A stretch of DNA of 64,000 nt, taken from Spirosoma sp. KCTC 42546. Lineage in GTDB: Bacteria; Bacteroidota; Bacteroidia; Cytophagales; Spirosomataceae. The notes under the pieces were generated by a model. The model did no database searches. It saw only the letters and a list, made by a program, of their open reading frames with translations, and had not been told where the DNA came from. Below are positions 3,095-62,980 of the stretch, in pieces; within the stretch, counting starts at the first letter, position 1; every line of letters starts with the position of its first letter. The stretch spans positions 4,382,501 to 4,446,500 of the forward strand of contig NZ_CP041360.1 in NCBI RefSeq assembly GCF_006965485.1, written 5' to 3'. The position numbers and the translations under genes are program-made.

Positions 3095-3172
3095 ATGGAT
3101 AATTAGTAATGAATAATGGATAATGAATGCTTAGATAGACTCATTGTACATTATGCATTACTCATTATCCAT
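3095..3172. repeat. Inverted repeat, ATGGATAATG-word family (element E1)
   Basis: Two 32-nt arms (3095-3126 and 3141-3172) are inverted copies with four mismatches, separated by a 14-nt loop. Each arm is made of degenerate tandem words like ATGGATAAT and AGTAATG. The right arm contains the stop codon (TAA at 3158-3160) and last codons of the DUF2452 gene. It shares its words with the element at 4223-4301. Confidence 0.85.
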
Positions 3173-3628
3173 TTTTTCATAATTGGTTTCGTGATACTGT
3201 ACATCCCAGGTATGATCGGCCATCATGCGGACGGTGGCGAGGCAGCGTTCAAACGGGAACTTACGGCCCCATTCGTTTGGGCCGATCATTGAGAGCAGAT
3301 CGGTGCCGTTTTTTCGCTGATAAAAATGATAGGTATGGCCAACCACAGGCTCAAAATTCATTTGAGCCGAGTAAATCCGCTCCGAGATTTCGACCCGGTT
3401 CCGAATGGCCGTAGCCTGTTCGGCCAGCAACTGCATTTGCTTGTACAGCTGACTAAGCTGCATGTCCGTTTGTTCGCGCATGGCCGCCACCGCCCGTCCT
3501 GTAATCTTACCCTTGTCTTCGGGGCGAATAACAGCACTACCGGCTGTGTGTGCATAGGCCAGCAGGCCCGGTGCTTCGGCAACTTTATCCGGCGAAATCG
3601 GATTGATGATAACTTTCGCTTCTTCCAT
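3158..3628 (-). CDS. DUF2452 family protein
   Basis: 156 aa, cytoplasmic, no signal peptide or membrane segment. The sequence matches my memory of DUF2452: an N-terminal INPISPDKVAEAPGLLAYAH segment, a helical middle with many Gln/Leu (MQLSQLYKQMQLLAEQ) and a C-terminal half rich in aromatic residues (GHTYHFYQRKNG, MIGPNEWG). The function of the family is not known. The last residues (KMDNE) and the stop codon are encoded inside an inverted-repeat arm, so the natural C-terminus may have been remodelled by the repeat. It lies 77 bp upstream of menB on the same strand and may be cotranscribed with it. Confidence 0.75.
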   Translation of the reverse strand: MEEAKVIINPISPDKVAEAPGLLAYAHTAGSAVIRPEDKGKITGRAVAAMREQTDMQLSQLYKQMQLLAEQATAIRNRVEISERIYSAQMNFEPVVGHTYHFYQRKNGTDLLSMIGPNEWGRKFPFERCLATVRMMADHTWDVQYHETNYEKMDNE

Positions 3629-3783
3629 AGTTGTTAATTGGGTAACCGCCCTGCAAACGTGTTTGTTCGCTGTCGTTGAATGACAAAAAATAACGCATCT
3701 TTACACCGTAAAACGGCACAATGCCACAAAAGTACGCGAAAACCGTTATGGAAACTACCCTTCCTACAATGGATCAGTCAACA

Positions 3784-4215
3784 ATGCATCGGCAGGAGTT
3801 TCTGCGGCTAGTCGGCACCAGCATTGGCGCCATTCTGCTAACGCGCTGTATGGCCGGTTGTTCTGGACAAGGCAATGCGGACCCCACTCCTGATCCAAGC
3901 CAGAAAGTCGATTTTACCCTTCGATTGGATGATAAAGCAAACGAAAACCTGCTGGTAAAAGGCGGATACGTGATCGCGAATGGGGTTATTGTGGCTCAGA
4001 CGAAAGATGGCCAGTTTGTAGCCGTCTCAGCCGACTGTACCCACGAGGGAACCCAACTCGTCTATAAATCAGCGGATAACATGTTTTACTGTCCGCTTCA
4101 TCTCTCCCGTTTCGACACGTCTGGCAAAGTAGTTGTTGGTCCCGCCACGCTCCCCCTAACTAAGTATACGACCGAGCCAAATCTTACAGCGGGTACCGTG
4201 CGGGTGCATAATTGA
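3784..4215 (+). CDS. Rieske-type [2Fe-2S] protein, exported, possible lipoprotein
   Basis: 143 aa from the ATG at 3784 (MHRQEFLRLVG); in-frame ATGs at 3721, 3748 and 3769 would add up to 21 residues. The N-terminus has a hydrophobic stretch (LVGTSIGAILL) followed by TRCMAGCSG, a plausible lipobox, so export is likely. The Rieske cluster motifs are present: CTHEG near residue 83 and CPLHLSRF near residue 103 (C-x-H ... C-x-x-H). The second box lacks the usual C-P-x-H-G/W context, but all four ligands are there. Such small soluble Rieske proteins carry single electrons; no partner oxidoreductase is adjacent. Divergent from DUF2452, followed by menE across a perfect hairpin. Confidence 0.82.
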   Translation: MHRQEFLRLVGTSIGAILLTRCMAGCSGQGNADPTPDPSQKVDFTLRLDDKANENLLVKGGYVIANGVIVAQTKDGQFVAVSADCTHEGTQLVYKSADNMFYCPLHLSRFDTSGKVVVGPATLPLTKYTTEPNLTAGTVRVHN

Positions 4216-4222
4216 ATTTTAT

Positions 4223-4301
4223 AATGGATAATGTAAAATGAACAATGGATAAGGTTGAGGACTATCACTCATTATCCATTGTTCATTTTACATTATCCAT
4301 T
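4223..4301. repeat. Perfect 30-bp inverted repeat, ATGGATAATG-word family (element E2)
   Basis: Arms at 4223-4252 and 4272-4301 are exact inverted copies (30 of 30) with a 19-nt loop. Each arm contains the words ATGGATAA, TGTAAAATG and ACAATGGATAA. It starts 7 bp after the Rieske stop codon and ends 12 bp before the menE start codon, so it fills nearly the whole spacer. There is no T tract for a terminator. Confidence 0.9.
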
Positions 4302-4313
4302 TCCCATTTCATC

Positions 4314-5426
4314 ATGTTCCTCCCCCCCACCCATTCTGACTCGTGGCCTTTACCGCAAACACCGTATGAAGCGGAGGCTCTGGAATTTTGTCGAGCCTGG
4401 TTGAGTGGTCAGACCGAATTTACGCTTCATACCTCTGGCTCGACCGGAACGCCTAAACCAATTCGGCTCACGCGGGTGCAAATGCAGGCGAGTGCGTATC
4501 TGACCGGGCAAACACTTGGTTTACAAGCGGGTGATGCCGCCCTTGTCTGCCTGAACATTCATTATGTAGCGGGTGTCATGATGCTTGTTCGTGGGCTGGA
4601 ATTGGGCTTACCCATGACCATTATTGAACCAACCAGCAATCCACTGCTTGATTTTTCTACAGAACGGTTTGCGTTTACAGCCTTCGTACCCCTGCAACTT
4701 CAGGCTATTTTAGCATCTAGCAGTTCGCCAGATTGGTTAACCAAACTAGCTATACTGAACGGCATGAAGGCCATTTTGGTGGGGGGAGCAGCCACGAGCC
4801 CATCTCTGGAAAAAGCGCTACACCTAATAACCGCTCCTGTGTATGCCACCTATGGCATGACCGAAACCGTCTCCCACATCGCTCTCCGACGACTCAATGG
4901 CCCCAATGCCAGTGACTTGTTTACGGCCCTCAAAGGAGTCGAACTCGGCACTGATGAGCGCGGGTGTCTGCACATCACCTCAGCAGCTACGAACGGGGAG
5001 CGGATTCAGACAAACGATGTTGTTGATTTAATTGATCCCACACATTTTCGACTAGTAGGTCGGGCCGACCGGGTTATTAATAGTGGCGGAGTAAAAATAC
5101 AGCCCGAACAGGTAGAACACGTGATCATGAATCAGCTAGCTAAATTAGACTTAGGTAGCGAAAGCACGAATAGACGCCTTTTTGTAACGGGTTTGCCAGA
5201 CGAACGGCTGGGGCAACGGGTGGCGGTCGTTTATGAGCGGGGAGCAGGGGGCAGGGAGCAGGGTAATTATAACCTGGATAGCGATACCTGGGTGCTTCTG
5301 CAGGAAGCCGTTCGGAAAAAATTAGGCCCCTATGCTGTACCAAAAGAACTCATTGCAGTGGCTCACTTTTCAGAAACACCCACCGGTAAGGTTGATCAAA
5401 AAGCGACAGTTGCACAAATACGCTAA
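4314..5426 (+). CDS. menE: o-Succinylbenzoate-CoA ligase (menaquinone synthesis)
   Basis: 370 aa from ATG 4314 (MFLPPTHSD). An upstream in-frame ATG at 4245 lies inside the inverted repeat and is rejected as start. It belongs to the ANL adenylating superfamily: P-loop HTSGSTGTPKP near residue 40, ATYGMTE near 180, the hinge GRADRVINSGGVK near 250 and the C-terminal catalytic-lysine motif PTGKVDQKA near 360. It activates o-succinylbenzoate to its CoA thioester, the substrate of MenB. It is shorter than typical MenE (about 450 aa) but keeps all core motifs, which is usual in Bacteroidota. Around residue 308 (ERGAGGREQGN) a purine-rich repeat word appears to be inserted in frame. Confidence 0.88.
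   Translation: MFLPPTHSDSWPLPQTPYEAEALEFCRAWLSGQTEFTLHTSGSTGTPKPIRLTRVQMQASAYLTGQTLGLQAGDAALVCLNIHYVAGVMMLVRGLELGLPMTIIEPTSNPLLDFSTERFAFTAFVPLQLQAILASSSSPDWLTKLAILNGMKAILVGGAATSPSLEKALHLITAPVYATYGMTETVSHIALRRLNGPNASDLFTALKGVELGTDERGCLHITSAATNGERIQTNDVVDLIDPTHFRLVGRADRVINSGGVKIQPEQVEHVIMNQLAKLDLGSESTNRRLFVTGLPDERLGQRVAVVYERGAGGREQGNYNLDSDTWVLLQEAVRKKLGPYAVPKELIAVAHFSETPTGKVDQKATVAQIR
5236..5263. repeat. Purine-rich GGGAGCAGGG word inside menE
   Basis: Two to three degenerate copies of GGGAGCAGGG stand in tandem within the menE reading frame, giving the Gly/Arg/Glu-rich GAGGREQG. The stretch is more repetitive than the surrounding codons and resembles the purine-rich words in the intergenic hairpins. 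No matching inverted arm is present. Confidence 0.55.
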
Positions 5427-5452
5427 CTTTGCGACCTGTTAACCGACGTTTT

Positions 5453-6193
5453 ATGTCTTTCAAAAGTCTTCAGATTCGCTTTCAGACCGCCCGGTCCTTA
5501 CCTGCACCTTATGCGTATTTTTATACCCTGAACCTTGATAAAGTTGCTGGTAACGCTATTCAGGTCAATATCGACATCACCTATCCCGATCGTGATGATA
5601 TCGACGACGATGAATTAATTGCGGAAGGGTTCACGCGTGATGACGATTATGTATGGTCAGGTCAGCTACCCAAAACCTGGTGGGAGGCCATCGCTAATCT
5701 GGTCCGTAAAACGCGTCTGCAACCAATTAACGAAGACGAACTGGACGAAGACGATGATTTCTGGGACATAACGCTTGAGACGGATAACGGAACCAAATCT
5801 CAGGGAAAGCCAGCCAAAGCCGATGATTGGCAGTATTTAATGCAGGAACTCATCCAGGCGACTTATGAAGCCGTTGGGCGGGAACGGCCATTTGACTTAG
5901 TATATCTGAGTATCGGAGGTCAGCCGGGTGAGCAGGAAATTAGGCTAACCGCTTCCTTTGCCGACCGAACCGTTAAAATAACGACGGTAGAAAACCGACG
6001 CGAACAGACCAAAATGCTTCCGTGGTCAACGTTGCAACACGTTATGGGGCAGGTTTATAACAACGACTACGACCCTGATGATGCCCTGCTCAAACGCCCG
6101 AAACAGGAAGGCCAATGGCTCAATCTGGGTACGGAAGAATGGTACGACATAAGTGGCCTTAAGAACCTGGTGAAGATGTTCCGGGGACTTTGA
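5453..6193 (+). CDS. Hypothetical acidic cytoplasmic protein
   Basis: 246 aa from ATG 5453 (MSFKSLQIRFQTARS); a TTG at 5429 would add eight residues but sits almost on the menE stop. No signal peptide or membrane segment. It is strongly acidic, with Asp/Glu runs (DRDDIDDDELIAEG, NEDELDEDDDFWD), and has two aromatic-rich beta-type stretches (YAYFYTLNLDK, FDLVYLSIGGQPG) that could be two halves of a duplicated fold. I do not recognise a family. It lies 26 bp after menE on the same strand and its stop codon overlaps the next gene's ATG by one base (TGATG), which suggests translational coupling to the peptidase. Confidence 0.7.
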   Translation: MSFKSLQIRFQTARSLPAPYAYFYTLNLDKVAGNAIQVNIDITYPDRDDIDDDELIAEGFTRDDDYVWSGQLPKTWWEAIANLVRKTRLQPINEDELDEDDDFWDITLETDNGTKSQGKPAKADDWQYLMQELIQATYEAVGRERPFDLVYLSIGGQPGEQEIRLTASFADRTVKITTVENRREQTKMLPWSTLQHVMGQVYNNDYDPDDALLKRPKQEGQWLNLGTEEWYDISGLKNLVKMFRGL

Positions 6194-7347
6194 TGAACTA
6201 TCTGCTTACTCTCCTACTTTTTGCGGCTACAACTGTACTGGCGCAGACTGCCAGTAAACCCAGAGCCCGTGATTTAGGCATTCCATTCAATGGGACGCCG
6301 GGAAAATTTAATGCCATTACGGATGTACCAGGTGTGCTGGTTGGATACAAAACCAGAATTGAAGGGTCAGGCAAATGGGTTCTGGGAAGCGGTCCCATCC
6401 GAACCGGCGTAACGGTGGTGATGCCCGTTGGTAAAACTGATAAAAGCTACCCGGCGGGTTATTTCATTTTCAATGGCGACGGTGAAATGACCGGCATTCC
6501 GTACATCCATGATTACGGAACGGGTTACGGCCCAATTGGTATCACGAATACCAACAGTGTTGGTGTTGTCAGAGATGCCATTGGTGCCTGGTGCCACCAG
6601 AAATTCTCGACCAAAAATCCGCTTGATTTTTCCTTTGGACTACCCATTGTCGGCGAAACCTGGGATGGTGTGTTAAACGATATAAATGGCCTCCACATAC
6701 AGAAGGAGCACGTATTTTCGGCTTTAGAAAGTGCTGGTTCCGGCGCGATTCAGGAAGGAAATGTGGGTGGAGGTACGGGTATGGTTTGCTATGCATTCAA
6801 AGGTGGAACCGGTACAGCTTCACGAACCTTTACAATTGGTAATCGAACCTATACCATTGGTGTTTTAGTGCAGGCCAATTTCGGCCGCCGACCCGATTTG
6901 TTGGTTGCAGGCATGCCTGTTGGAAAGGAAATTTCGGATCTGATGCCCGTTATCAACGAGAAAGATGGCTCGATCATCGCTATCGTAGGAACGGATGTGC
7001 CGCTTGTGTCTTCCCAATTGAACTTAGTCGCAAAACGCGTTACCATGGGGATTGCCCGCACGGGTACGTATGGTACCAACAGCTCGGGCGACATTTTTAT
7101 GGCCTTTTCGACCAGGCAAGCCGAACAGGACTCCACAACCAAATTAACAACCTACCAATCCGTTGATAAGTCAAGTCTGGACCCGGTGTTTAAGGCAACC
7201 GTAGAAGCCACAGAAGAAGCCATCATCAATGCCCTCGTTGCAGCAGAAACAATGGAGGGCATCAATAATCATAAAGTGTATGCTCTCCCCCACGACCGAA
7301 TGCAGAGCGTTTTGAAGAAATACAATCGACTGCAAAAGGTCGATTAA
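6193..7347 (+). CDS. P1-family (DmpA-like, S58) peptidase, exported
   Basis: 384 aa from ATG 6193. A clear signal peptide (MNYLLTLLLFAATTVLAQ) sends it to the periplasm. It belongs to the DmpA/BapA family of self-processing beta-aminopeptidases: RARDLGIPFNGTPGKFNAIT and DVPGVLVGY at the N-terminus, GITNTNSVGVVRDAIG in the middle, and GTYGTNSSGDIF near residue 300. The last holds the Gly/Ser-Ser cleavage site where the chain cuts itself to expose the catalytic serine. Substrates in the family are N-terminal D-amino acids or beta-peptides; the real substrate is unknown. The start overlaps the preceding stop as TGATG. Confidence 0.88.
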   Translation: MNYLLTLLLFAATTVLAQTASKPRARDLGIPFNGTPGKFNAITDVPGVLVGYKTRIEGSGKWVLGSGPIRTGVTVVMPVGKTDKSYPAGYFIFNGDGEMTGIPYIHDYGTGYGPIGITNTNSVGVVRDAIGAWCHQKFSTKNPLDFSFGLPIVGETWDGVLNDINGLHIQKEHVFSALESAGSGAIQEGNVGGGTGMVCYAFKGGTGTASRTFTIGNRTYTIGVLVQANFGRRPDLLVAGMPVGKEISDLMPVINEKDGSIIAIVGTDVPLVSSQLNLVAKRVTMGIARTGTYGTNSSGDIFMAFSTRQAEQDSTTKLTTYQSVDKSSLDPVFKATVEATEEAIINALVAAETMEGINNHKVYALPHDRMQSVLKKYNRLQKVD

Positions 7348-7395
7348 ATGTTGTGGCTTTGGGCACCGGCTACCCAGCCCAACACCACGACATTT
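7346..7395. terminator. Bidirectional hairpin whose arms contain both converging stop codons
   Basis: Arms 7346-7356 (AAATGTTGTGG) and 7385-7395 (CCACGACATTT) pair over 11 bp with one G-U, and GGGC/GCCC pairs further in. The plus-strand stop TAA is at 7345-7347 and the minus-strand stop is at 7394-7396, so each arm begins at a stop codon. Probably a shared terminator, though T tracts are short. Confidence 0.55.
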
Positions 7396-8038: not shown

Positions 8039-8087
8039 AGTTAAAAAAGGTTGAGAGACAGAGCTGTATGCAGTTCCGTGTTAACTT

Positions 8088-11953: not shown

Positions 11954-11979
11954 GATGAATCCAGCTTATTTTGATGGAG

Positions 11980-13242: not shown

Positions 13243-13317
13243 AGAAAGAATGAATGAGTGAAAGAGCGGAAAGCTGAAATAAACTATTTTTCGCTCTTTC
13301 ACTCATTCATTCTTTCT
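13243..13317. repeat. Perfect 26-bp inverted repeat, AATGAGTGAAAGAGCG family (element E5)
   Basis: Arms 13243-13268 and 13292-13317 are exact inverted copies with a 23-nt loop. The arm contains AATGAGTGAAAGAGCG, which occurs again identically at 29339-29354. The element ends 13 bp beyond the LuxR regulator stop codon, so it lies at the 3' end of that transcript and may act as its terminator. Confidence 0.9.
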
Positions 13318-20925: not shown

Positions 20926-21027
20926 GCGAAAAATGAGTGAAGAGTGTAGAACGAAAAGTGAAGAATAAAAAAGGTAGACCGTACTATTCTTCATTTTTCA
21001 TTCTACACTCTTCACTCATTTTTTCGC
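20926..21027. repeat. Long inverted repeat (about 42 bp), AATGAGTGAAGAGTGTAGA family (element E7)
   Basis: Arms 20926-20967 and 20985-21027 are inverted copies over 42-43 nt with one indel and two substitutions and a short loop of 17 nt. The right arm holds the truA stop codon (TGA, 21012-21014) and codes for its last residues. Words AATGAGTGAA and GAAGAGTGTAGA are shared with the element at 29339-29440. Confidence 0.9.
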
Positions 21028-24971: not shown

Positions 24972-27920
24972 ATGTTTCAACGACGATTCCTGACGGCCCT
25001 GCTTCTGTTTAGTACACTTACAGTCTCGGCCCAAACCCTACCGATTCTCGATCAAAACCCTACCAGCCTGCGCTGGTATAGGATTAACACGCCCCATTTT
25101 CGCGTTTTATACCCCAGGGGTCTCGATTCCACCGCTCAGCGAACAGCCAGTCGACTGGAAAGCCTGTACGAACCAACCAGTGCTTCGCTCGACAAACAAC
25201 CCCGACCAATTTCAGTTTTGCTGCAGAATCAGAACACAGTAAGCAACGGCTTTGTAACGCTGTTTCCACGTCGGTCGGAGTTCATTGCCGTAGCCCCACA
25301 AGATCCTGCGCTGATGGGTACGTACAATTGGCTCGATTTGTTGGCGGTCCATGAATATCGACATGTTGTACAGTATGAAAAATCACTACAGGGCTATGGA
25401 CGTGTACTCCATACCTTGTTGGGCAGTACAGGTCAGTTTCTTCCCACCTTAACGGTCCCCGACTGGTTTGCCGAAGGGGATGCCGTTAGTAACGAAACCC
25501 TGCTAAGTAACAGCGGTCGTGGCCGGATTCCCAACTTCGATCTGGGTATGCGCGCCAACCTGCTCGCCGGAAAGCCTTTCGATTACCCCAAAGCGGTGGC
25601 TGGTTCGTACCGCGATAATGTACCAAACCATTACGTACTGGGTTATTTTCTGACAACCTATCTCAAACGCACCTACGGCCCGGATGTCTGGAGTCGGGTG
25701 CTTGACCGCAACTACCGTCGGTTTCCGTGGCCCTTTGCCTTCTCGGCCAGTATTAAAGAAGAAACCAAGTTGCGAACGGAAGATATGTACCGCAAAACGA
25801 TGGACGATCTAACCGAAATCTGGCAAAAACAGCAGGAAGGGTTAACGATCACCCCCTCAACAGGTTTCCTCGTTAGCGCCGAAAAACCAAACTCGACAAG
25901 GCCGAATCCACGGCGGCCGATCTTTACTAACTATCAGCATCCGCAGTTCCTGAACGACTCGACTGTTGTATGCGTAAAAAGCGGCCTTGGTGATACGCCC
26001 CGACTGGTAATTTTATCAAAGAACAAGCCTGAAAAAACGATTCATGTGCAGGGTTTCCCGAATGACCCCGATCTGCTTTCGGCCACGCCCACTAAAGTAT
26101 GCTGGATTGAATTAGGATTCGACCCACGCTGGGGTCAGCGTGTTTACTCCAACATTCGTCTGCTCGATCTCAGGACCGGAAAGCTTACCCGCCTGACGCA
26201 CCGCACCCGTTATACCACGGTTGCTCTTTCACCCGACAATACGAAACTGATTGCTGTTGACAATACAGATCGGTACAAAATCAACTTGCTGGTGCTTGAT
26301 GCAAAGTCCGGCAAGGTCATAAAGCAATTACCCAACCCCGACAATGAGTTTTACCAGCATCCGCGCTGGCAGGATGACAATCGTACCGTTATAACGGTTG
26401 TCCTGAAAGATGGGCAGAAAACTATTCAGGCTATTGACACTGATGGCAATACAAAAACTGATCTACTGCCCCGCATAAATGAGAATATCAGCCACCCACA
26501 GCCCTGGGGTAAGTATGTACTATACAACTCACCCCGATCAGGAATCGACAATGTGTTTGCCGTAGATATCAACTCGAAGCAAGTATTCCAGGTCACCTCT
26601 CGCCCATTGGCGGCTTATCATGCAACCATATCGCCATCAGGTAAGCGGCTCGCGTTCGAAGATTTTGCCGCAACGGGCTATCGGATTGCTGACATGCCCC
26701 TTGCTCCTGCCAACTGGAAACCTATAAGCGCGCCAGCACAGGAGCAACCCATTCGCTACTTTGGTTCATTGCCCCAACAGGAACCGGGTGCCGCCCTGGG
26801 GCGTCGTATTTTGGCAGATTCGGCAACAACAGCAACCCGTTACCAGCCGACGCGCTTTCGGCGGCTGGCCCATGCCCTTAATGTGTACAGTTGGGGGCCA
26901 ACTATAGCCAGCACCGGGCAAGCCTTGACGGTTGGGCTGAGTTCGCAGGATTTGCTGAGCACGACGCAGATTGGCGTGGGTTATACCTATAACCAGACCG
27001 AACAGGCTGGCAACCTCTATGCCCTGCTCAGTTATCAGGGACTTTTCCCGATCATTGATGTAAGCTTTCAACGCGGCACACGCAGTACTTCTCTCTTCAT
27101 CGACCGGATAGAACCCGCCGACAGCCTGCGTTCGGATCGCTGGCAGTACAATCAGTTGACAGCCGGGTTTCGGTTGCCTCTTCAATTCACCAATTCGAAG
27201 TACATTCAGGGAATAAATCTGTCAGCTTACTTCAACTACCTTCAGGTAACGGGCTACGACCTCCCTTATCGCTATCCAACGGAGGTCGGCTCTTCAGGGT
27301 CGATCAGCGCCTTAACGTATGGATTTAGCTACTCTCACCTGTTACGGCAAAGCAAACGGGATGTTGCTCCCCGTTGGGGTCAATCGCTGTCGGTCAACTA
27401 CCGCACAACCCCCTTCGGCGGGAAACTCACTGCCGAACAATTAGGGGTTCAAGGCAATTTATTTTTCCCAGGCTTAGCCAAGCACCATTCGCTACGCTTA
27501 CGGGCAGGCTATCAGCTACAGGCACAGGGAACGTACCAGTTTGGCGCACTCGTATTTTATCCGAGAGGACAATCCTATATTGGCTTCGACCAGATCAAAG
27601 CAGGCAGCGTTGAATACCGATTCCCGCTGGCTGATACCCACTGGTCGCTGGGGCGATGGCTGTATGTGCAACGGATTAAAGCAGGCGGCTTTTATGATCT
27701 TGCCAAAGGGCAGAGTAATGTGGAAGTGCGCGATGTGTTTGGTCGCCTTCGTGGTTACGAAACGCAGTACCGTGATTTTCAGACAACCGGGCTCGACGTC
27801 TCCTTTGTCTTCAACACCCTTCGTTTACGCAACTCCTTCGAAGCCGGTTTCCGAACCATTTACAACGTAACCACCCGCCAATGGCTGATTCAACCGTTAG
27901 TGATTGATATTGGGTTTTAA
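24972..27920 (+). CDS. Fusion of HExxH metallopeptidase-like domain, TolB-type propeller and outer-membrane barrel
   Basis: 982 aa from ATG 24972. Signal peptide MFQRRFLTALLLFSTLTVSA. Residues about 20-300 look like a gluzincin-type metallopeptidase: HEYRHVVQYE (HExxH) near 120 with a downstream WFAEGDAV supplying a possible third ligand near 167. Residues about 300-600 carry WD40/TolB-like beta-propeller repeats (TTVALSPDNTKLIAVDN, YQHPRWQDDNRTVITVVL, ATISPSGKRLAFEDF). The last 350 residues read as a beta barrel of the surface-antigen/Omp85 kind (LSAYFNYLQVTGYDL, GGKLTAEQLGVQGNLFFPGL, AGFRTIYNVTTRQWLIQPLV). It should sit in the outer membrane with the peptidase-like part in the periplasm. 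Substrate unknown. Confidence 0.75.
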   Translation: MFQRRFLTALLLFSTLTVSAQTLPILDQNPTSLRWYRINTPHFRVLYPRGLDSTAQRTASRLESLYEPTSASLDKQPRPISVLLQNQNTVSNGFVTLFPRRSEFIAVAPQDPALMGTYNWLDLLAVHEYRHVVQYEKSLQGYGRVLHTLLGSTGQFLPTLTVPDWFAEGDAVSNETLLSNSGRGRIPNFDLGMRANLLAGKPFDYPKAVAGSYRDNVPNHYVLGYFLTTYLKRTYGPDVWSRVLDRNYRRFPWPFAFSASIKEETKLRTEDMYRKTMDDLTEIWQKQQEGLTITPSTGFLVSAEKPNSTRPNPRRPIFTNYQHPQFLNDSTVVCVKSGLGDTPRLVILSKNKPEKTIHVQGFPNDPDLLSATPTKVCWIELGFDPRWGQRVYSNIRLLDLRTGKLTRLTHRTRYTTVALSPDNTKLIAVDNTDRYKINLLVLDAKSGKVIKQLPNPDNEFYQHPRWQDDNRTVITVVLKDGQKTIQAIDTDGNTKTDLLPRINENISHPQPWGKYVLYNSPRSGIDNVFAVDINSKQVFQVTSRPLAAYHATISPSGKRLAFEDFAATGYRIADMPLAPANWKPISAPAQEQPIRYFGSLPQQEPGAALGRRILADSATTATRYQPTRFRRLAHALNVYSWGPTIASTGQALTVGLSSQDLLSTTQIGVGYTYNQTEQAGNLYALLSYQGLFPIIDVSFQRGTRSTSLFIDRIEPADSLRSDRWQYNQLTAGFRLPLQFTNSKYIQGINLSAYFNYLQVTGYDLPYRYPTEVGSSGSISALTYGFSYSHLLRQSKRDVAPRWGQSLSVNYRTTPFGGKLTAEQLGVQGNLFFPGLAKHHSLRLRAGYQLQAQGTYQFGALVFYPRGQSYIGFDQIKAGSVEYRFPLADTHWSLGRWLYVQRIKAGGFYDLAKGQSNVEVRDVFGRLRGYETQYRDFQTTGLDVSFVFNTLRLRNSFEAGFRTIYNVTTRQWLIQPLVIDIGF

Positions 27921-28012
27921 AAGAGGAGAAAAGGGAGGAAAGGGAAGAGAAGTATTGCTTTCGCATCAATTCCTTCGTCCTTTCCTCCCCTCCTCCCTTT
28001 TCTCCTCTTTTA
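27918..28012. repeat. Inverted repeat, GGAGAAAAGGGAGG family, starting at both stop codons (element E8)
   Basis: Arms 27918-27938 and 27992-28012 are perfect 21-bp inverted copies, each beginning TAAAAGAGGAGAAAAGG. The first TAA is the stop codon of the barrel-fusion gene and the mirrored TAA is the stop codon of the ABC permease gene. Inner parts repeat GGGAGGAAAGG words imperfectly. The T-rich strand on each side could also serve as a bidirectional terminator. Confidence 0.9.
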
Positions 28013-29354: not shown

Positions 29355-29440
29355 AATGAAGTGAAAAATGAAGAGTGTAGAGTGATGAATAGTTTGATTG
29401 CATCAGTTTTTATTCATCACTCTTCATTCTTCACTTCATT
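29355..29440. repeat. Inverted repeat between the ABC genes (element E9)
   Basis: Arms 29355-29391 and 29411-29440 match with one substitution and a 7-nt extra word (TAGAGTG) in the left arm. Just before the left arm, 29339-29354 repeats the AATGAGTGAAAGAGCG word of the element at 13243. The right arm ends at the stop codon of the ABC ATPase gene (29440-29442). The element fills the spacer inside an operon, so it is unlikely to be a strong terminator. Confidence 0.85.
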
Positions 29441-55255: not shown

Positions 55256-55278
55256 CTGGTTTAAGAACCCGACGTAGC

Positions 55279-55348
55279 GAGGTTTCTCAAAACCTACTGT
55301 GCCCTATTCGGTTTTGAGAAACCTCAACAGTCAGGTTGAAGAACCTGA
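55279..55348. repeat. GGTTTCTCAAAACC and TCAGGTT palindromes next to the IS (element E13)
   Basis: GAGGTTTCTCAAAACC (55279-55294) has an exact inverted copy at 55310-55325, and each arm also folds on itself. TCAGGTTGAAGAACCTGA (55331-55348) is a separate 7-bp-arm palindrome. The same GGTTTCTCAAAACC word forms the leuS terminator at 55374-55405. Confidence 0.75.
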
Positions 55349-55373
55349 CTTCACCTGCATAGAGCTAAGCTAA

Positions 55374-55405
55374 AAATGGGTCGGTTTCTCAAAACCGACC
55401 CATTT
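55374..55405 (-). terminator. leuS terminator built from the GGTTTCTCAAAACC word
   Basis: AAATGGGTCGGTTT (55374-55387) pairs exactly with AAACCGACCCATTT (55392-55405) across CTCA. On the minus strand it is followed by TTTTTA and starts 3 bp after the leuS stop codon. Confidence 0.75.
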
Positions 55406-55408
55406 TAC

Positions 55409-58309
55409 TTAAATCACTACGTTCACAATTCGTTTCGGCACCACCACCACTTTTTTGGGTGATTTGCCTTCCAGCCACTTCTGCACGATTTCGTCGGCCA
55501 GCACTTCGCGCTCGATTTCGGCTGGAGCCCGGTCGATGGCGAAACTGATGGTTGTGCGCACTTTGCCATTGATCTGAATCGGGTACTCGAAGGCGTCCTC
55601 AACCAGATAAGCTGGATTGAATACGGGAAACTCCGCCTGCGAGATTGTGCCGGGCTCATTGCCTAACGCTGCCCAGAGCTCCTCCGTAATGTGGGGCGCG
55701 TAAGGCGACAAGATCAGTACCAAATCCTGCAAAATTGCCCGTTTGTGGCAATTCAACGTAGCCAGTTCATTTACGCAGATCATGAACTGACTCACCGATG
55801 TATTGAACGAGAACGCTTCAATATCATTTCCGGCCTTCTGAATCGTTTTGTGTAAAACCTTCAGTTCAGCCGGTGTTGCTGGTTCGTCTGTTACAATCCA
55901 GTTGCTACTTCCGTCTGCATTGTCCTTATAAAACAACCGCCAGAATTTACGGATGAAGCGATACACACCGTCGATACCATTGGTACTCCAGGGCTTAGCC
56001 TGTTCCAGCGGCCCGAGGAACATTTCGTAAAGCCGCAACACATCAGCGCCGTATTTCTCGACAATCGTATCGGGATTCACAACGTTGAACTTCGATTTCG
56101 ACATTTTTTCAACCTCATTCCCAACGATGTATCGTCCATCAGGCTCAGTGATGAACTCAGCATTTTCGGCAAAATCAGGGCGAGCCTTTTTAAACGCGTC
56201 GATATCCAATACGTCATTTTCAACAATATTGACATCAACGTGAAGGGGAGTTACCTCCTGGCCGCTAATCTGGTTCAGCGATAAAAACACGGCTGGCGCA
56301 CCTTCCCGTCCTGTACCTGCTATCCGATACACAAAATTGCTCCGCCCCTGAATCATGCCCTGGTTGATGAGCTTTTTGAACGGCTCTTCCTGCGGCACGT
56401 AGCCCCGGTCTTTCATGAACTTGTTCCAGAAACGACTGTACAGCAAGTGGCCCGTGGCGTGTTCGGTACCACCGATGTACAGATCCACATTCTGCCAGTA
56501 GTTAATGGCTTCTTTGCTGGCAAATTCGTTGTCGTTGTTCGGGTCCATGTAGCGGTACCAGTACCACGACGAACCTGCCCAACCCGGCATGGTACTTAAT
56601 TCGTAATCGTAACTATTCAAGTCCCCTTTAGGGGATTTAGGGGTATACTTCCATCCCTCAGCGCGTCCTAGTGGGGGCTCACCGGTTTCGGTAGGCAGGT
56701 ATTTATCAACGGCGGGCAATTCCAACGGCAGGTCGCTTTCGTCAATCAAATACGGTAAGCCGTCTTTGAAATACACCGGCACCGGTTCACCCCAGTAGCG
56801 TTGGCGGCTGAAAACCGCATCGCGCATCCGGTAGTTGATTTTGCCTTTACCCAAACCTCGTTCTTCAAGCCACGCAATCAGGGTTGCCGTAGCTTCCTTG
56901 TAGGTCATGCCATTGATGATACCCGAGTTAATATAATGGCCTTCTTTGGTGTTGTCAGCCTGTTGGTCAACGTCTTTCTGGGCATCCAGAATCGGGATGA
57001 TGGGTAGGTTGAAGTGGGTTGCAAAGTTCCAGTCGCGCTGATCGCCCGAAGGAACGGCCATAACCGCACCCGTACCGTAACCCGCCAAGACGTAGTCGGC
57101 CAGAAAGATGGGGACTTGCTCGCCATTGAACGGATTGGTGCAGTAACTACCCGTAAATACGCCCGAAACAACTTTCGTTTCGGCCATCCGGTCGCGCTCC
57201 GACCGTAGTTTGGCCGCGTTTACATACGCATCAACGGCTTCCTGCTGCTCAGGCGTTGTCAACTCAGCCGCCAACTCATGCTCAGGCGCCAGTACCATAA
57301 ACGTAACACCGTAAATGGTATCAACACGGGTAGTGAAGACTTCAATATAGGAGGAAGGGGAAGAAAGGGACGAGAGGGAGGAATGGGAGATTTCCACTCG
57401 TCCCTTTCCTCCTTCCTCCCTTTTCTCCCCAAGAGGAAATTTCACACTGGCACCAACCGACTTTCCAATCCAGTTCCGCTGCTGTTCTTTGAGCGATTCG
57501 GTCCAGTCAATCGTATCTAAGCCGGTCAACAAACGGTCGGCGTAAGCGGTGATGCGCATCATCCACTGACGCATCAGTTTCTGTTCGACAGGATAGCCAC
57601 CCCGCTCCGAAACGCCGTCTTTTACTTCGTCGTTGGCCAGAACGGTACCCAGCGCCGGACACCAGTTTACTACCGCATCGGCCAGATACGTCAGGCGATA
57701 TTTCAGGGTTATTTCATAGGACTCCCGCGTAGACATGGCGTTCCACTCGGCAGCGGTGAATGTGGGCGTGTCATCGGCACATACGGCGTTGACATCTGTC
57801 GTACCGTTCATCGCGAACTTATTCGTCAGTGTTTCAATGGGTTCTGCCCGGTCGGTATCTTTGTTATACCACGAACGGAATAGCTCCATGAAAATCCACT
57901 GTGTCCATTTGTAATAGGATGGATCGGACGTGCGGACTTCGCGGCTCCAATCGTAGCTGAACCCAATATTTTTCAGTTGCTCAATGTATCGTTCCCGGTT
58001 TTGCTCCGTTGTGATGGCCGGGTGTTGGCCCGTTTGAATCGCGTACTGTTCGGCCGGAAGACCGAAGGAATCGAAGCCCATTGGGTGCAACACATTAAAC
58101 CCTTTCAGCCGCTTGTAACGCGACACGATATCGGAGGCAATGTAACCCAGTGGGTGGCCAACGTGCAGCCCCGCTCCCGATGGATACGGAAACATGTCAA
58201 GAACGTAGTACTTTGGCTTAGTCGTCTGTTCTGCGGGTTTGTAGGTGTGGTGATCGTCCCAAAACTGCTGCCATTTCTGTTCAGTTTCGCGGTGGTTGTA
58301 GTCAGCCAT
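55409..58309 (-). CDS. leuS: Leucyl-tRNA synthetase with two repeat-derived insertions
   Basis: 966 aa, class I synthetase. HIGH-type motif in [17 protein letters not shown] near residue 48 and KMSKS in [17 protein letters not shown] near 735; editing domain (CP1) lies between. It charges tRNA-Leu. Two stretches do not look like Leu[22 protein letters not shown] near residues 293-320 is encoded by a purine-rich inverted repeat just before [22 protein letters not shown] near 553-565 is encoded by an AAGTCCCCTTTAGGGGA-type repeat just before the catalytic [12 protein letters not shown] block. Both stay in frame, and all catalytic motifs survive, so the enzyme should be functional. Confidence 0.94.
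56617..56647. repeat. AAGTCCCCTTTAGGGGATTTAGGGG word inserted in leuS (element E14)
   Basis: The stretch contains the short palindrome TCCCCTTTAGGGGA and an extra TTTAGGGG. Read in the leuS frame it gives [11 protein letters not shown]. Similar words are remembered from other Bacteroidota genomes, but that is from memory only. Confidence 0.65.
57350..57430. repeat. Purine/pyrimidine inverted repeat inserted in leuS (element E15)
   Basis: GAAAGGGACGAG (57363-57374) pairs exactly with CTCGTCCCTTTC (57397-57408), and flanking GGAGGAAGG words pair imperfectly outward. It shares the 16-nt word GGAGAAAAGGGAGGAA with the intergenic element at 27918-28012. It lies wholly inside leuS and keeps frame. 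Confidence 0.8.
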
Positions 58310-58317
58310 GAGTAATG

Positions 58318-58445
58318 AAAAATTGATAATGGAAAATGTATAATGGAAACGAAAGTAGAGTCATTATCCCGGTCATTTTTAGGAGATCCATCGGCTAATT
58401 GCCCGGAGAACAGTATTCATTTTACATTATACAGTAGTCATTGAG
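58318..58445. repeat. Degenerate ATAATGGAAAATG-word repeat upstream of leuS (element E16)
   Basis: On both sides of the leuS upstream spacer there are words like TGATAATGGAAAATG and CATTTTACATTATAC in opposite orientation. Pairing is imperfect. The vocabulary is that of the elements at 3095 and 4223, so this may be a decayed copy. Confidence 0.5.
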
Positions 58446-58504
58446 TGGTTCAGGTTGCAAAAATAGCCGATTACAAAGACTTTTGCCTATCGGCCAGTCG
58501 ATGA

Positions 58505-60340
58505 ATGTATAAACACCTAATGAATCAAGCCCAATCCACTGCTCCTTTGCCCCATACAGATCAGCAGCCTATCGTCGCGGGCTCATCATACTGGTTGTGG
58601 TCCGTTGGATTAGGGCTTTTGGCTATGTTGCTCGGCATCTGGATCGTTGGCGATTTTCATCATCCTCTTTCCGATGGCAACGACACCGACCAGTTCGAAT
58701 ATGTGGGCTATTTTTTCCAGAAGAATCTTACGTTCTGGCCGTTTCCGCACCTTAATCTGATCAATACGCAAACCTTTTATCCGTATGGCACGAATCAGGT
58801 ATTTCTGGACTGGGGTTTCGAGCGCGACTACTGGTATACGGTCTGTTATCGGATTTTGGGCGGCCCCGGCCCGTATCTCCAATATTATTATGTGTACAGT
58901 CTGGTCGTTGCAGCCGCTGGAACGTTCATGTTGGTAAGCCCTCGCTTTGGCATCGGCAAATCGGTTATTCTTGGTCTGGTTGTCTCGATTTTTAATTTTT
59001 ATGCGATCTACAAGTTCCCTGTCCACATGAACGTTTGTGTAGGGCACTGGACAACCCTTTGCGTAGTAGCCACATATCGACTTTTATATGATTTGGTGAC
59101 AGCCAGATCGATCTCGCTCATCTATATACTGGCCTGGATATGGCTTCATGTTCAGGTATTGAGTCAGGAACTGGCCTACGTGGCGGGCTTTGCATTAACA
59201 TTTACCACACTGGCCTTCCCAGTTATAATCGTTATTCTGTACCAGCGATTCCGTATGAAATCCTGGTTTATGCTGATTCTTAGTTACCTACAGGAACAAT
59301 GGAGTCAGTATAAAGTGGGCGTTGTAGGCTGCTTACTAATCATAGGATTTAGCTTATTTCTGTATCTGCCCCTAACCCTTCAAATTGCCTTTACAGCCTG
59401 GCAATTCGACTTTAGCACCGTCCCTGAATTACGCGCCTGGTCGCACCCGCTGCGCATATTGATCCCCCATCTGCCTGGCTTTCACACTTATGATGTTGAT
59501 TATGGCCGTCTCTTCCATGACACGTTTGAGAGTTACGGGCAAGGGAGTCCTGGGCTGTATTTGACGGTAATGGCGGTTATCGGTTGGTGGCAATTCCGGC
59601 GATGGATAGCTGTTTGGTTACCTATTGTATTGATGGTAGGCCTATGCCTGCTCTACCACCCCGTTTTGTTACCAACGCTGAAGTTGTTTCCCTGGTTTAG
59701 TTTCAACCGACATGGCGGACGGGCCAGCCTGATCTATCCGGTACTTTTAGGCCTACTAGCCCTGCCAATTCAATGGCCCCGCCGACTATCCGCGCAACTT
59801 ATCGGGATTCTATTACTTGGCCTGATGGGTATGGAGTGGTACACGGGCTATGTTCAACGTATAGTCTATCCGGCCAACGTAGCCTCCGATAGTCTTTTAC
59901 GCTATTGCGCCCTGGTGAGGCAACAACCGGGTACAGCTGTCCTCGACTGGCCATTCTGCACGGTTGGGGGTGATGGAGTGGGCATGAACGAAGGACTTTG
60001 TCCTTATTATGTTCAGCAAAACGCGGTCTTTACCTTCCGGCGATTCTATGATAAAAGCGGAGTCGGGCAATATTTCGGGCGACTACATCCCGGCCAGATA
60101 CAACCGTTTCTGCGCGATGGGTGGCCCCGCCTGCTAACACCGGGGCGGCTATTTACAGCACAGGACTGGCAGTTTCTGGATGCATTTCTACGCCAGAACA
60201 ACTTCGCGGGTATCAACCTATATCCTGATTTACTGACACCCGAACAGGTCGCCCAGTTTTACCAGCATTATGGCCAGCCCATTGCCGAAACAACGTTTCC
60301 GGCTGCAGGTCGAGTGGCTTTTATCGCACTAAAAAGGTAG
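58505..60340 (+). CDS. Polytopic membrane protein, possible GT-C-like glycosyltransferase
   Basis: 611 aa (an ATG at 58520 is an alternative start). About ten to twelve membrane helices (LWSVGLGLLAMLLGIWIVGD, YVYSLVVAAAGTFMLVSPRF, LILAWIWLHVQVLSQEL-like region, VYPVLLGLLALPIQW-like region). The first external loop holds acidic GNDTDQFEYVGYFF and the C-terminal 150 residues form a soluble periplasmic part (AVLDWPFCTVGGDGVGMNEG). This layout is like GT-C or YfhO-type enzymes, which use lipid-linked sugars; identity is uncertain. Divergent from leuS. Confidence 0.7.
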   Translation: MYKHLMNQAQSTAPLPHTDQQPIVAGSSYWLWSVGLGLLAMLLGIWIVGDFHHPLSDGNDTDQFEYVGYFFQKNLTFWPFPHLNLINTQTFYPYGTNQVFLDWGFERDYWYTVCYRILGGPGPYLQYYYVYSLVVAAAGTFMLVSPRFGIGKSVILGLVVSIFNFYAIYKFPVHMNVCVGHWTTLCVVATYRLLYDLVTARSISLIYILAWIWLHVQVLSQELAYVAGFALTFTTLAFPVIIVILYQRFRMKSWFMLILSYLQEQWSQYKVGVVGCLLIIGFSLFLYLPLTLQIAFTAWQFDFSTVPELRAWSHPLRILIPHLPGFHTYDVDYGRLFHDTFESYGQGSPGLYLTVMAVIGWWQFRRWIAVWLPIVLMVGLCLLYHPVLLPTLKLFPWFSFNRHGGRASLIYPVLLGLLALPIQWPRRLSAQLIGILLLGLMGMEWYTGYVQRIVYPANVASDSLLRYCALVRQQPGTAVLDWPFCTVGGDGVGMNEGLCPYYVQQNAVFTFRRFYDKSGVGQYFGRLHPGQIQPFLRDGWPRLLTPGRLFTAQDWQFLDAFLRQNNFAGINLYPDLLTPEQVAQFYQHYGQPIAETTFPAAGRVAFIALKR

Positions 60341-60477
60341 ACTATTTGTTCGTATTGACGAGCGTGCAACGCCCCTGCGGCTTTTGGCGTATACTTTCTT
60401 GAACCAACTCCTGTACCGACGCATGGCATGACTTTTTACGATTGATATTTATCCAACTATCCAATTCGTACGTACCC

Positions 60478-61665
60478 ATGCGACGTTCTTTATCGTTCGC
60501 GACGCTGACCCACGTCGCCCTACTTGGCTTTAGCCTTTTTGGTTGCCAAACCGATAGTAGTGTAGAGCCTACAAGTGTTGACTGTCTGGTTAAGGCCTCG
60601 TCTACCAACGGGACGGCCATTGCCGGTTCTTACATTGTTACCTATCGACCCGCGCTATCAACTTCCTCGTCTTCCAACGCCCGCCTTGCCAGCACCGACG
60701 CCCAGGTGGAGCAGTTTCTTACCGATGCCCAGGTCACTAATGCACAGGCGGAAGTGCTAGCAACCGGGGATCAAACCAGTTTTCTGGCTCAGCTAACCGA
60801 ACGTGAGTCAGAAAAGCTAAAGCAGGACCCATCGGTTTTGCTCATAGAGCCTGATCAGATTATGTCGATGTGTAATTGTGTCGACGTTACAACGACAACC
60901 ACGTTGCCCTGGAATATTAGTCAAACTGGCTACGGTCGGGGCGATTTACAAACGACAAAAACAGCCTGGATCATCGATACAGGTATAGACCTCGATCACC
61001 CCGATCTGAATGTAGATGTCACCCGAAGTAAATCATTCGTTAGTGGTACGACCTCGGCCGACGACGAAAATGGACACGGCACGCACGTAGCGGGTATTAT
61101 TGGGGCCAAAAACAACAGCATCGGCGTAACCGGCATTGCCTCGGGGGCAACGCTGGTTTCGTTAAGGGTTCTGGATGATGAAGGTGAAGGTCGGCTGTCT
61201 GGAATTATTCAGGCCATCAATTACGTCCGACAGAATGGAAAAGCGGGCGATGTGGTCAATCTGAGTCTGGGTGGCGAAAGTACGTCAACGACACTCGATC
61301 AGGCAATCACCCAAGCGGCCAACGCGGGCATTTTATTCGCCATTGCGGCAGGCAACGACAGCAAAAACGCCGATAATTATTCGCCCTCACACGTCAATCA
61401 TGCCAATGTGTTTACGGTTTCAGCGATGGACAGCAAAAACCAGTTCGCATCATTTTCCAACTTTGGCAGCAGTGTCGACGTTTGTGCCTATGGTGTTCGT
61501 ATTACATCGACTTACATGGGTGGAAAGTATGCCACCTTGAGCGGTACCTCTATGGCAGCTCCGCATGTAGCCGGTTTATTGTTTATCCGTGGAAACACCT
61601 TCCCCAAACACGGTACGGTTACCGGCGATACCGACGGAACGCCTGATCCGATGGCAGGTGAGTAA
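60478..61665 (+). CDS. Subtilisin-like (S8) serine peptidase, lipoprotein
   Basis: 395 aa from ATG 60478 (MRRSLSFATLTHVALLGF) rather than ATG 60442. Lipobox LFGC. Residues about 35-125 form an inhibitor_I9-type propeptide ending around LLIEPDQIM. The catalytic triad is complete: Asp in AWIIDTGIDLDHPDL near 168, His in NGHGTHVAGIIGA near 200 and Ser in LSGTSMAAPHVAGL near 358. It should mature by self-cleavage outside the cytoplasm. The C-terminus is short (GDTDGTPDPMAGE) with no sorting domain. Confidence 0.9.
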   Translation: MRRSLSFATLTHVALLGFSLFGCQTDSSVEPTSVDCLVKASSTNGTAIAGSYIVTYRPALSTSSSSNARLASTDAQVEQFLTDAQVTNAQAEVLATGDQTSFLAQLTERESEKLKQDPSVLLIEPDQIMSMCNCVDVTTTTTLPWNISQTGYGRGDLQTTKTAWIIDTGIDLDHPDLNVDVTRSKSFVSGTTSADDENGHGTHVAGIIGAKNNSIGVTGIASGATLVSLRVLDDEGEGRLSGIIQAINYVRQNGKAGDVVNLSLGGESTSTTLDQAITQAANAGILFAIAAGNDSKNADNYSPSHVNHANVFTVSAMDSKNQFASFSNFGSSVDVCAYGVRITSTYMGGKYATLSGTSMAAPHVAGLLFIRGNTFPKHGTVTGDTDGTPDPMAGE

Positions 61666-61720
61666 AAGGTTCAGACCAGTAGATTCTTCTGATTCCTTGC
61701 ATCTTTCCTGATCCCTAACG

Positions 61721-61728
61721 TATCTTTG
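61721..61728 (+). promoter_or_regulatory. -7 promoter element of the TauE gene
   Basis: TATCTTTG matches TAnnTTTG; a TTG lies about 21 bp upstream. Transcription would start just before GGCACG at 61730. Confidence 0.45.
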
Positions 61729-61729
61729 T

Positions 61730-61805
61730 GGCACGTTCAGGCCAGTCTATACGTTGCTGACCTGAATCCGATTGAAAACATGCGGCACGCTGACGTGCCG
61801 TTTTT
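61730..61805 (+). promoter_or_regulatory. Possible attenuator/leader with terminator upstream of TauE
   Basis: A stem TTCAGG-c-CAG / CTG-a-CCTGAA (61736-61745 with 61757-61766) is followed by a terminator CGGCACG-CTGA-CGTGCCG plus five T (61783-61805). GGCACG at 61730-61735, at the 5' end of the predicted RNA, is identical to the terminator's left arm and can pair with the right arm instead. It could switch termination on and off. Alternatively the terminator simply ends the subtilase transcript. Confidence 0.45.
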
Positions 61806-61847
61806 CATAAATAAAATACTCCATTAACTCGATAGGCATTATACTGT

Positions 61848-62915
61848 ATGAGTCAACAGATAGCCTCTACCGCCAATTCGGCAGACACTTCACTAAGTCT
61901 GGCAGAGCCAGGAATCGACCTTAATGGACTGACGATCAGCCTTCAGGGAGACAACGCTGCGAAACAGGCCGATGCGATACGGGCCGCATTCCCAACGGCT
62001 ACTGTGCAAACGGGCTTATCCCGGCCACTTCTCCGACGCAGGAATCGCACAGAAATTGCCATTTATGTTTTTTCTGCCCTCGCGCTGATGGTTGTCGGGC
62101 ATCTGTTATTCAGCTATTTCACGCTGGATCGGCTGACGGTTATGGCTAGTTCCATTGACCTAACGCCCCAGATTTTCTACTTCATTCTGGCCGGATTTGT
62201 TGCCCAAATGATCGATGGAGCATTGGGCATGGCCTATGGCGTAACGGCTACTACATTCCTGACAAGCGTGGGCATCAGTCCCTTATTCGCTACTGCCAGC
62301 GTACACAGTTCCGAAATTTTCACCTCGGGGGTATCGGGTTACATGCACCTGAAGTTTGGCAATGTTAACAGCCGGTTGTTTAAGATTGTCCTGATTCCTG
62401 GCGTTATAGGCGCTGCGTTAGGTGCCTTTCTGATTACAAAATTGGCCGACATGGAAGTGGTTGCCAATTACTTATCACCGGCTATCTCTGTTTACACGGC
62501 CATTCTGGGTATTTTGATTCTGAAAAAAGCGCTGGCGAAACAAACGAAGAAAAAACCCGTTCGCCAGATTGGTCTGCTGGCCTGGTTCGGAGGTTTTGTC
62601 GATGCCATTGGCGGAGGTGGCTGGGGCCCCATTGTGAATTCTACGCTTATTGCGTCGGGCCGTCATCCACGCTACACAATTGGGTCGGTTAATCTGGCCG
62701 AATTTTTCGTTTCGTTTGCCAGCTCTGTTGTGTTCGCCCTCTATGCCGGATTGGATAATTATGGCATGGTGATCCTGGGTCTGATTCTGGGTGGCATGAT
62801 TGCTGCCCCTATTGCTGCCCGGTTGGCACAAAAACTACCTGTCAAGACCATGATGATTTTGGTCGGAATTGTCGTTATTCTCGTAAGTTTGCGGAAGATT
62901 ATCAAGTTCTTTTAG
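61848..62915 (+). CDS. TauE/SafE-family sulfite/anion exporter
   Basis: 355 aa. The N-terminal 60 residues are cytoplasmic and unusual for the family (GIDLNGLTISLQGDNAAKQA). Eight or so membrane helices follow. Family signatures: GFVAQMIDGALGMAYGVTAT near residue 117 and the second-half repeat GFVDAIGGGGWGPIVNSTLI near 250. TauE/SafE proteins move sulfite, sulfonates or other anions. The next gene is a trans-sulfuration enzyme, which fits a sulfur-metabolism pair. A leader with terminator precedes it. Confidence 0.88.
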   Translation: MSQQIASTANSADTSLSLAEPGIDLNGLTISLQGDNAAKQADAIRAAFPTATVQTGLSRPLLRRRNRTEIAIYVFSALALMVVGHLLFSYFTLDRLTVMASSIDLTPQIFYFILAGFVAQMIDGALGMAYGVTATTFLTSVGISPLFATASVHSSEIFTSGVSGYMHLKFGNVNSRLFKIVLIPGVIGAALGAFLITKLADMEVVANYLSPAISVYTAILGILILKKALAKQTKKKPVRQIGLLAWFGGFVDAIGGGGWGPIVNSTLIASGRHPRYTIGSVNLAEFFVSFASSVVFALYAGLDNYGMVILGLILGGMIAAPIAARLAQKLPVKTMMILVGIVVILVSLRKIIKFF

Positions 62916-62916
62916 T

Positions 62917-62980
62917 GTCTGGGCCAAGTTCCTGCTTGGCCCGTGAAAATTGACAGGCCAGGCAGGAGCTTGGCCCAGAC
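62917..62980. repeat. 25-bp inverted repeat filling the TauE-trans-sulfuration spacer (element E17)
   Basis: Arms 62917-62941 and 62956-62980 are inverted copies with two G-U type differences. They carry the words TCTGGGCCAAG and CCTGCTTGGCC. It begins 1 bp after the TauE stop codon and ends 3 bp before the next ATG, so it covers the ribosome entry site of that gene. Confidence 0.85.

Follow-up and report, generated by a model that had tools for sequence, protein, structure and literature searches.

What are the long, degenerate inverted repeats that recur through a 64,000-nt stretch of the Spirosoma sp. KCTC 42546 genome (8.66 Mb, single contig; positions 4382501–4446500, the window in what follows)? 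The original prediction regarded them as one mosaic family sharing words and the hairpin form, made by a copying process that builds palindromes from local tandem words. The answer that we consider fairly probable is a different one: the degenerate palindromes belong, as gene-less forms, to families of hairpin elements that reside at gene 3′ ends and whose rare full-length members enclose a small gene between their arms. What we add is that the words form dialects, shared with gene-bearing hairpin elements.

That the repeats exist is clear. The window holds 14 ungapped inverted repeats scoring at least 15 while 40 block shuffles yielded none (best shuffled score 14), and a separate repeat listing of 25 places in the window includes all 14. 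A genome-wide sample of 20 stretches plus the window, 464 kb in total, contains 80 repeats at this score and its two shuffles none. The shuffles of window and sample rule out a chance origin; extrapolation from the sample suggests a genome total of the order of 1,500. The predicted word sharing was largely confirmed, with AATGAGTGAAAGAGCG at 13253 and 29339 and GGAGAAAAGGGAGGAA at 27925 and, inverted, at 57413 within leuS. The words GAAGAGTGTAGA and ATGGATAATG are also shared, the former at 20939 and 29370 instead of 20941 and 29371, the latter at 3116 and 4224 and not at 3095. A single family could not be upheld, since eleven degenerate hairpins fall into two dialects and about six are unrelated. 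Five of the unrelated repeats (E2150, E37747, E41862, E49546 and E62916, named by their start) match no gene-flank dialect, with scores at about the shuffle level, and lack a clear periodicity in their arms (highest excess 0.11). E55279 has its own recurring palindrome, GGTTTTGAGAAACC, which is also found in a relative (G035; G-numbers denote relatives' genomes and L-numbers loci) at the spacer equivalent to 62916–62981. Within the window, Rfam gave no match at the gathering threshold and a tRNA scan no tRNA.

Words of the window recur beside small genes elsewhere in the same genome. It encodes six matches to PF05635, the four-helix-bundle (FHB) protein of 23S rRNA intervening sequences (IVSs), and six to PF13366 (GxxExxY, PDDEXK_3); two of the FHB proteins (L007 and L010) exceed the TIGR02436 cut-off. 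At 11 of these 12 loci the 400-bp flanks form inverted arms with a score of at least 16, the twelfth (L012) reaching 14. Several arms are written in words of the window, namely GGAGAAAAGGGAGGAA at L008, AATGGATAATG at L011, CACAGAG at L014 and L015, CGCAAAG at L016 and TTATGATT at L018; those of L007, L009 and L010 consist of other words. The gene-less window hairpins carry no PF05635 gene.

The association extends throughout the genus. In a subset of the matches, and leaving aside five short loci (L080, L171, L186, L194 and L227), flanking inverted repeats with a score of at least 16 within 350 bp were present at 25 of 34 FHB loci and then at 34 of 40 further ones (59/74 in total), and at 33 of 35 GxxExxY loci. 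DUF559 genes (23/28) and GIY-YIG genes (13/29) are also enclosed, by palindromes other than the two dialects. All GIY-YIG positives are found among the loci with frames of 92–123 aa (13 of 15), and none among the 14 others, which are mostly of UvrC length. DUF559 and short GIY-YIG genes have parallel hairpin families in the genus. Among control genes, arms were seen at none of 29 Uma2 and one of 30 leuS loci, and in at most 0.7% of shuffles.

Neither are the arms confined to Spirosoma. In other Bacteroidota, drawn phylum-wide from 118 genomes, they flank 22 of 30 FHB and 24 of 29 GxxExxY genes (shuffles 1.7% and 3.1%). Plasmid searches returned 26 FHB and 8 GxxExxY records, of which 8 and 4, respectively, were analysed, selected for variety and with Riemerella matches omitted. 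All eight FHB loci, from Nostoc (two), Calothrix, Pseudanabaena, Picosynechococcus, Azospirillum, Geminocystis and Gemmatirosa and hence outside Bacteroidota, beat 100 shuffles, as did three of the four GxxExxY loci (Gemmatirosa, Sphingomonas and Bernardetia, the last a member of Bacteroidota). On two cyanobacterial plasmids (L355 and L356) the FHB gene has cas6 and cas4 as its neighbours in one case, cas10 and a Cmr3-family gene in the other. A sequence search of the PDB matched the DUF559 protein to 3hrl and returned nothing for the GxxExxY and GIY-YIG proteins; the FHB protein has a relative of solved structure, 2gsc (five chains). PADLOC weakly matched the DUF559 protein to part of DpdF (3.7e-05) and gave no match for the other three families. 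In the open literature, judged mostly on titles, the beginnings of abstracts and passages, we found no published link between these genes and intergenic palindromes; the passages of a Flavobacterium genome paper that name four-helix-bundle genes report no link to hairpins (PMC5524665). We regard the association of genes and arms as strong, while the mechanism by which such elements spread remains a proposal.

The two dialects differ in their grammar. FHB arms are purine-rich and mostly degenerate heptads, with an excess of matches at lag 7 of 0.19 in the genus (59 loci), 0.22 in the phylum (22) and 0.24 in other phyla (8), which recurs at lag 14, the remaining lags staying at or below 0.10. 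The GxxExxY dialect is made of CACAGAG, CGCAAAG and TTATGATT words and has weak peaks, at lag 9 in the genus (0.08) and at lags 9–10 in the phylum (0.06). Among sample hairpins with arms of at least 22 nt, 13 of 59 peak at lag 7 (0.5 expected) and 35 are without a period; the median arm of 37 nt corresponds to about five heptads. The strong sample hairpins are purine-first in 30 of 55 cases, pyrimidine-first in 3 and intermediate in 22. The tips share a motif, GCTGACGC, found there in 13 of the 101 hairpins whose arm period is 7 or 8 (0.2 expected) and never at their base; it is also present in 6 of 176 other hairpins (0.3 expected). Since only exact duplicates were removed, related copies inflate both the GCTGACGC and the period counts. 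The same motif or a close form also stands near the loop in a palindrome family of the form GTAGAGACGC...GCGTCTC (L240, L213 and L032).

How do the window hairpins themselves (Table 1) relate to these gene flanks? For 20221, 37928 and 52808 the matches to GxxExxY flanks are clear (24, 30 and 30), the words of 52808 scoring also 20 near one Uma2 control locus. The hairpins at 3094, 4223, 27918 and in leuS match FHB flanks modestly (19, 20, 17 and 18), six shuffles of each having reached 13–16 (at most 16 for 27918 and the leuS element). The AATGGATAATG words score about equally near one GIY-YIG and one leuS locus, as would be expected of dispersed gene-less copies, so that the score alone leaves the class unfixed. 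The weakest of the FHB-type assignments is that of 20929. Hand-made word patterns used as class labels placed 61 of 122 hairpins in 'other' and were kept out of the evidence.

Table 1. Hairpins and palindromes of the window, with their words, arm periods and best-matching gene flanks.
Coordinates	Feature	Words	Arm period or lag	Gene-flank match (score)	Position and form
3094..3173	Gene-less hairpin	FHB-type, AATGGATAATG	Period 7	FHB locus L011 (19)	Overlaps stop codon of DUF2452 gene (3158–3628)
4223..4301	Gene-less hairpin	FHB-type	Period 7	FHB locus L011 (20)	Perfect 30-bp arms; 7 bp past stop of 3721–4215
13243..13317	Gene-less hairpin	GAGTGAAAGAGCG	Period 8	Arms like those of FHB locus L351 (17.5)	
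20221..20300	Gene-less hairpin	GxxExxY-type (CGCAAAG)	Period 9	L016 (24)	
20929..21023	Gene-less hairpin	GAGTGAAGAATG	Period 7	Best FHB flank, enlarged set (17)	
27918..28012	Gene-less hairpin	GGAGAAAAGGGAGG	Lag 9	FHB flank (17)	Extends between the two stop codons of a convergent gene pair
29355..29440	Gene-less hairpin	GAAGAGTGTAGAGTG	Period 7	Arms similar to those at FHB loci L333, L336 (19.5)	
37928..38005	Gene-less hairpin	GxxExxY-type, CACAGAGGCACAGAGAACACAGAG	Lag 9	L107 (30)	
52808..52898	Gene-less hairpin	GxxExxY-type, TTATGATTTTTATGATT	Lag 9	L110 (30)	
55279..55398	Palindromes of separate family	GGTTTTGAGAAACC			
57351..57429	In-frame hairpin	FHB-type, GGAGGAAAGGGACGAG	Lag 9	FHB locus L087 (18)	Within leuS reading frame
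58328..58442	Decayed hairpin	FHB-type	Period 7		Between divergent genes
62916..62981	Terminator-like hairpin	Neither dialect			

Comparison of orthologous sites, in relatives recovered with one window protein (15 Spirosoma loci and one Larkinella) and in further loci for single sites, reveals places that are kept and words that change. At the 27918 spacer, after setting aside 11 further loci that are non-syntenic, the arms of 19 loci (this genome included) group into 10 clusters when the threshold is set to 12, shuffled arms having a 99th percentile of 11 and a maximum of 18. At 29355 a hairpin scoring at least 14 is present in 11 of 30 loci, and the orthologous spacers of eight window elements have one scoring at least 12 in 30 of 61 cases. 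The spacer equivalent to 3094 contains hairpins with other words in G003 and G008; that of 20221 has a CACAGAG-type hairpin in one relative and measures merely 2 nt in two others. At 58328 similar words were recognized by eye in G032 and G008 and were absent in G003, G035 and G001, the repeat finder scoring 0/5, and in the 62916 spacer we noted, again by eye, words resembling the FHB type in G003 and the GxxExxY type in G001. Within leuS the same codon region holds differing in-frame inserts among 30 species, several of which are nearly insert-free; in four (this genome, L049, L050 and L056) the insert beats its own 100 shuffles as a hairpin, with words that differ. The LeuS of L050 (G029) has three separate PPAPKGG inserts, and the one for which the DNA was read is an in-frame CCCCAAAGGGGG palindrome.

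The presence and absence of a gene could be followed at L010, an FHB gene located 3.2 kb outside the window, both flanks of which were found in four of five relatives. The site is gene-less with a clear hairpin in G008 (score 22, shuffle maximum 12) and G001 (29, maximum 10), i.e. one site exists in two states. At the GxxExxY site L121 the arms remain and the gene is mostly gone. At orthologous gene-bearing sites, the FHB proteins within a site share a median identity of 0.55–0.90, compared with about 0.32 from site to site, which indicates that the words there changed around a gene inherited in place. An insert of ~1.7 kb in L020 at the spacer equivalent to 20221 was considered as a gene-bearing form and rejected, because its long frame resembles an unrelated enzyme, presumably 6-phosphogluconate dehydrogenase; a gap of similar size occurs at this spacer in G008.

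In spite of the changing words, the two arms evolve in concert. For the eight elements, taken in this genome and in those orthologous spacers that have a hairpin, 95 of 97 comparisons gave a closer match between the two arms of one element than between arms of different species (medians 0.83 vs 0.48 identity), and the same held for 79 of 88 comparisons at four orthologous gene-bearing sites, arms scoring below 14 being excluded. The predicted maintenance of pairing under drifting words is thereby borne out. It is also what would be expected if template switching during replication formed and restored palindromes on the spot, without the help of any dedicated element or protein and with the small genes as bystanders; in rRNA genes such switching can generate stems and repair them (PMC8794818). 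Compensatory selection or the swapping of whole hairpins would predict the same pattern, however. Template switching leaves unexplained why, in the genus, four families, and not Uma2 or leuS, lie between class-specific arms, why the arms of two of these families recur outside the genus, and why hairpins share a tip motif. We therefore think this explanation rather unlikely, and an origin simply from local tandem words is rejected as the whole story because the dialects recur with particular small genes in the genus, in the phylum and on plasmids of other phyla.

The hairpins lie chiefly at gene 3′ ends. By crude frames of at least 100 aa, 63 sampled hairpins comprise 33 between tandem genes, 21 between convergent and 3 between divergent genes, 4 in frames and 2 at edges, convergent and divergent spacers providing 17% and 23% of the intergenic bases. 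Of 75 arm edges, 46 have a stop codon no more than 20 bp away. Six RNA folds gave z scores of −5.6 to −13.6, two elements having been folded on both strands. The 3′-end position and the stable stems make it plausible that the hairpins terminate transcription on both strands. They might then be nothing but ordinary selected terminators, whose turnover is compensatory drift and into which the partner genes merely insert. The scarcity in divergent spacers and the stability of the stems would fit, and so would the 27918 hairpin, which scores at least 14 in 18 of 19 syntenic spacers and 13 in the last one. The pattern expected in this case, the same hairpin at the same site with compensatory changes, was found in part: some sites are conserved, but words often differ and 31 of the 61 spacers are hairpin-free. 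Moreover, terminators would not be expected to have degenerate heptad words, a tip motif and an arm grammar in common with gene-bearing elements in other phyla, the 29355 hairpin is absent from 19 of 30 loci, and the leuS element is inside a reading frame. As a full account we consider plain terminators unlikely.

Several known systems resemble the elements in part. IVSs are inserted in a 23S rRNA gene and excised by RNase III. In the 23S rRNA IVS of Coxiella a gene of the same S23p/four-helix-bundle protein family lies in the loop of pairing terminal inverted repeats, and a mobile origin has been proposed for it (PMC4990558). The Spirosoma elements, in contrast, are intergenic, present in several copies with arms that vary between them, and have gene-less forms. 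The six FHB loci of this genome with 1.5 kb on each side gave no Rfam match at the gathering score, rRNA included, which is why we do not file the elements as IVS members. A conserved palindrome tagged with GTAG or CGTC marks repetitive extragenic palindromic (REP) sequences and REPINs, and fixed terminal inverted repeats with a target duplication mark the miniature inverted-repeat transposable elements (MITEs) of insertion sequences. REPs and REPINs likewise are short palindromes at gene 3′ ends with many gene-less copies and a rare palindrome-flanked gene, but constitute fixed sequence families with a tyrosine transposase, where we find degenerate words with FHB, GxxExxY, DUF559 or GIY-YIG genes (PMC3733652). 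Movement by such a transposase (RAYT), or an origin as MITEs, could be suggested by a similar layout, REPs being palindromes situated for the most part between tandem and convergent genes and RAYT genes having REPs or other long inverted repeats as flanks (PMC3733652). The arms are degenerate and differ widely between copies, however, and the enclosed genes are FHB or nuclease-like, these being the families sought, with RAYT and insertion-sequence genes outside the search; we find this explanation very improbable. A precedent for exchanging one hairpin for another is IS1272, which takes the place of a stem-loop at its target and produces no target duplication; it has a transposase and its movement was observed, whereas here neither transposase nor event was seen (PMC5678879). 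Rickettsia palindromic elements are inserted within coding sequences like the leuS element, but are sequence families, unlike the words at the leuS site, which differ among species (PMC2229807).

A number of observations weigh against families of gene-bearing hairpin elements. The screen for partner genes covered these four families alone. A scored repeat is lacking at 15 of the 74 FHB loci of the genus, and the Fusobacteria plasmid GxxExxY locus (L362) has no arms above 100 shuffles. Mismatched flanks were at first swamped by orthologous ones (99th percentile 213 for FHB and 202 for GxxExxY); after dropping mismatched pairs scoring at least 60, the threshold was still reached by 3.6% of pairs for FHB, 10.7% for GxxExxY, 19.9% for GIY-YIG, 25.6% for DUF559, 5.1% for Uma2 and 8.7% for leuS. 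The words of 3094 and 4223 score equally well near control loci and FHB genes (17.5 and 18.5 at control loci for 3094; 20 near one GIY-YIG and one leuS locus for 4223), and 13243, 20929 and 29355 matched nothing until the FHB set was enlarged, their scores of 17.5, 17 and 19.5 having been obtained without new shuffles. Among hairpins of the FHB class the peak falls at lag 9 for 27918 and the element in leuS and at lag 8 for 13243, so period alone fails to sort all elements. The spacers examined at 27918 and 29355 span 47–155 nt, which leaves no room for an FHB gene, and the absence of a hairpin from 31 of 61 and 19 of 30 spacers means that it is not always retained. The switch between gene-less and gene-bearing states was observed at one site, where G003 has heptad-like words whose score (12) stays below the shuffle maximum (14) and G032 has no hairpin. 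No transposition, target duplication or excision was seen, target duplications without a systematic search. Finally, a consensus terminator scan for short-loop stems with a T run behind them, limited to loops of 3–8 nt (31 sites), flagged none of the five elements between 12000 and 31000 (13243, 20221, 20929, 27918 and 29355).

Our best reading takes the degenerate window hairpins as relatives of IVS elements that reside between genes, probably serve as terminators and are rewritten arm with arm. In the mechanism we propose, the hairpin in the RNA would act as a terminator or 3′-end stabiliser on both strands, and would be kept for that reason. Its sequence would be renewed by replacement with another hairpin from the pool and also by copying one arm onto the other. 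The elements would be mobile. The partner protein may bind or cut its own dialect and so spread or maintain the family.

More tentatively, and with considerable doubt, the elements could form a class defined by form and not by sequence, in which heptad arms are a candidate multivalent binding site for the FHB protein, each dialect has its partner, and terminators exchange hairpins with one another. Both the IVSs and the heptamer repeats of cyanobacteria would be branches of this class. Multivalent binding to heptads would have an analogue in TRAP, which binds repeated triplets. The STRR sequences of cyanobacteria are degenerate repeats of seven bases, and the Nostoc FHB genes L352 and L353 have GGGAAAA and GGAGTCA heptads as flanks, which resemble STRR.

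If the proposed relationship to gene-bearing hairpin elements is right, it would bear on the roles of the IVS four-helix-bundle, GxxExxY, DUF559 and short GIY-YIG proteins and account for the degenerate purine-rich hairpins scattered through such genomes. It would also show how one spacer can hold unrelated hairpins among related species. Since sites can be conserved while their words are not, they offer a direct test of the concerted evolution of hairpin arms.

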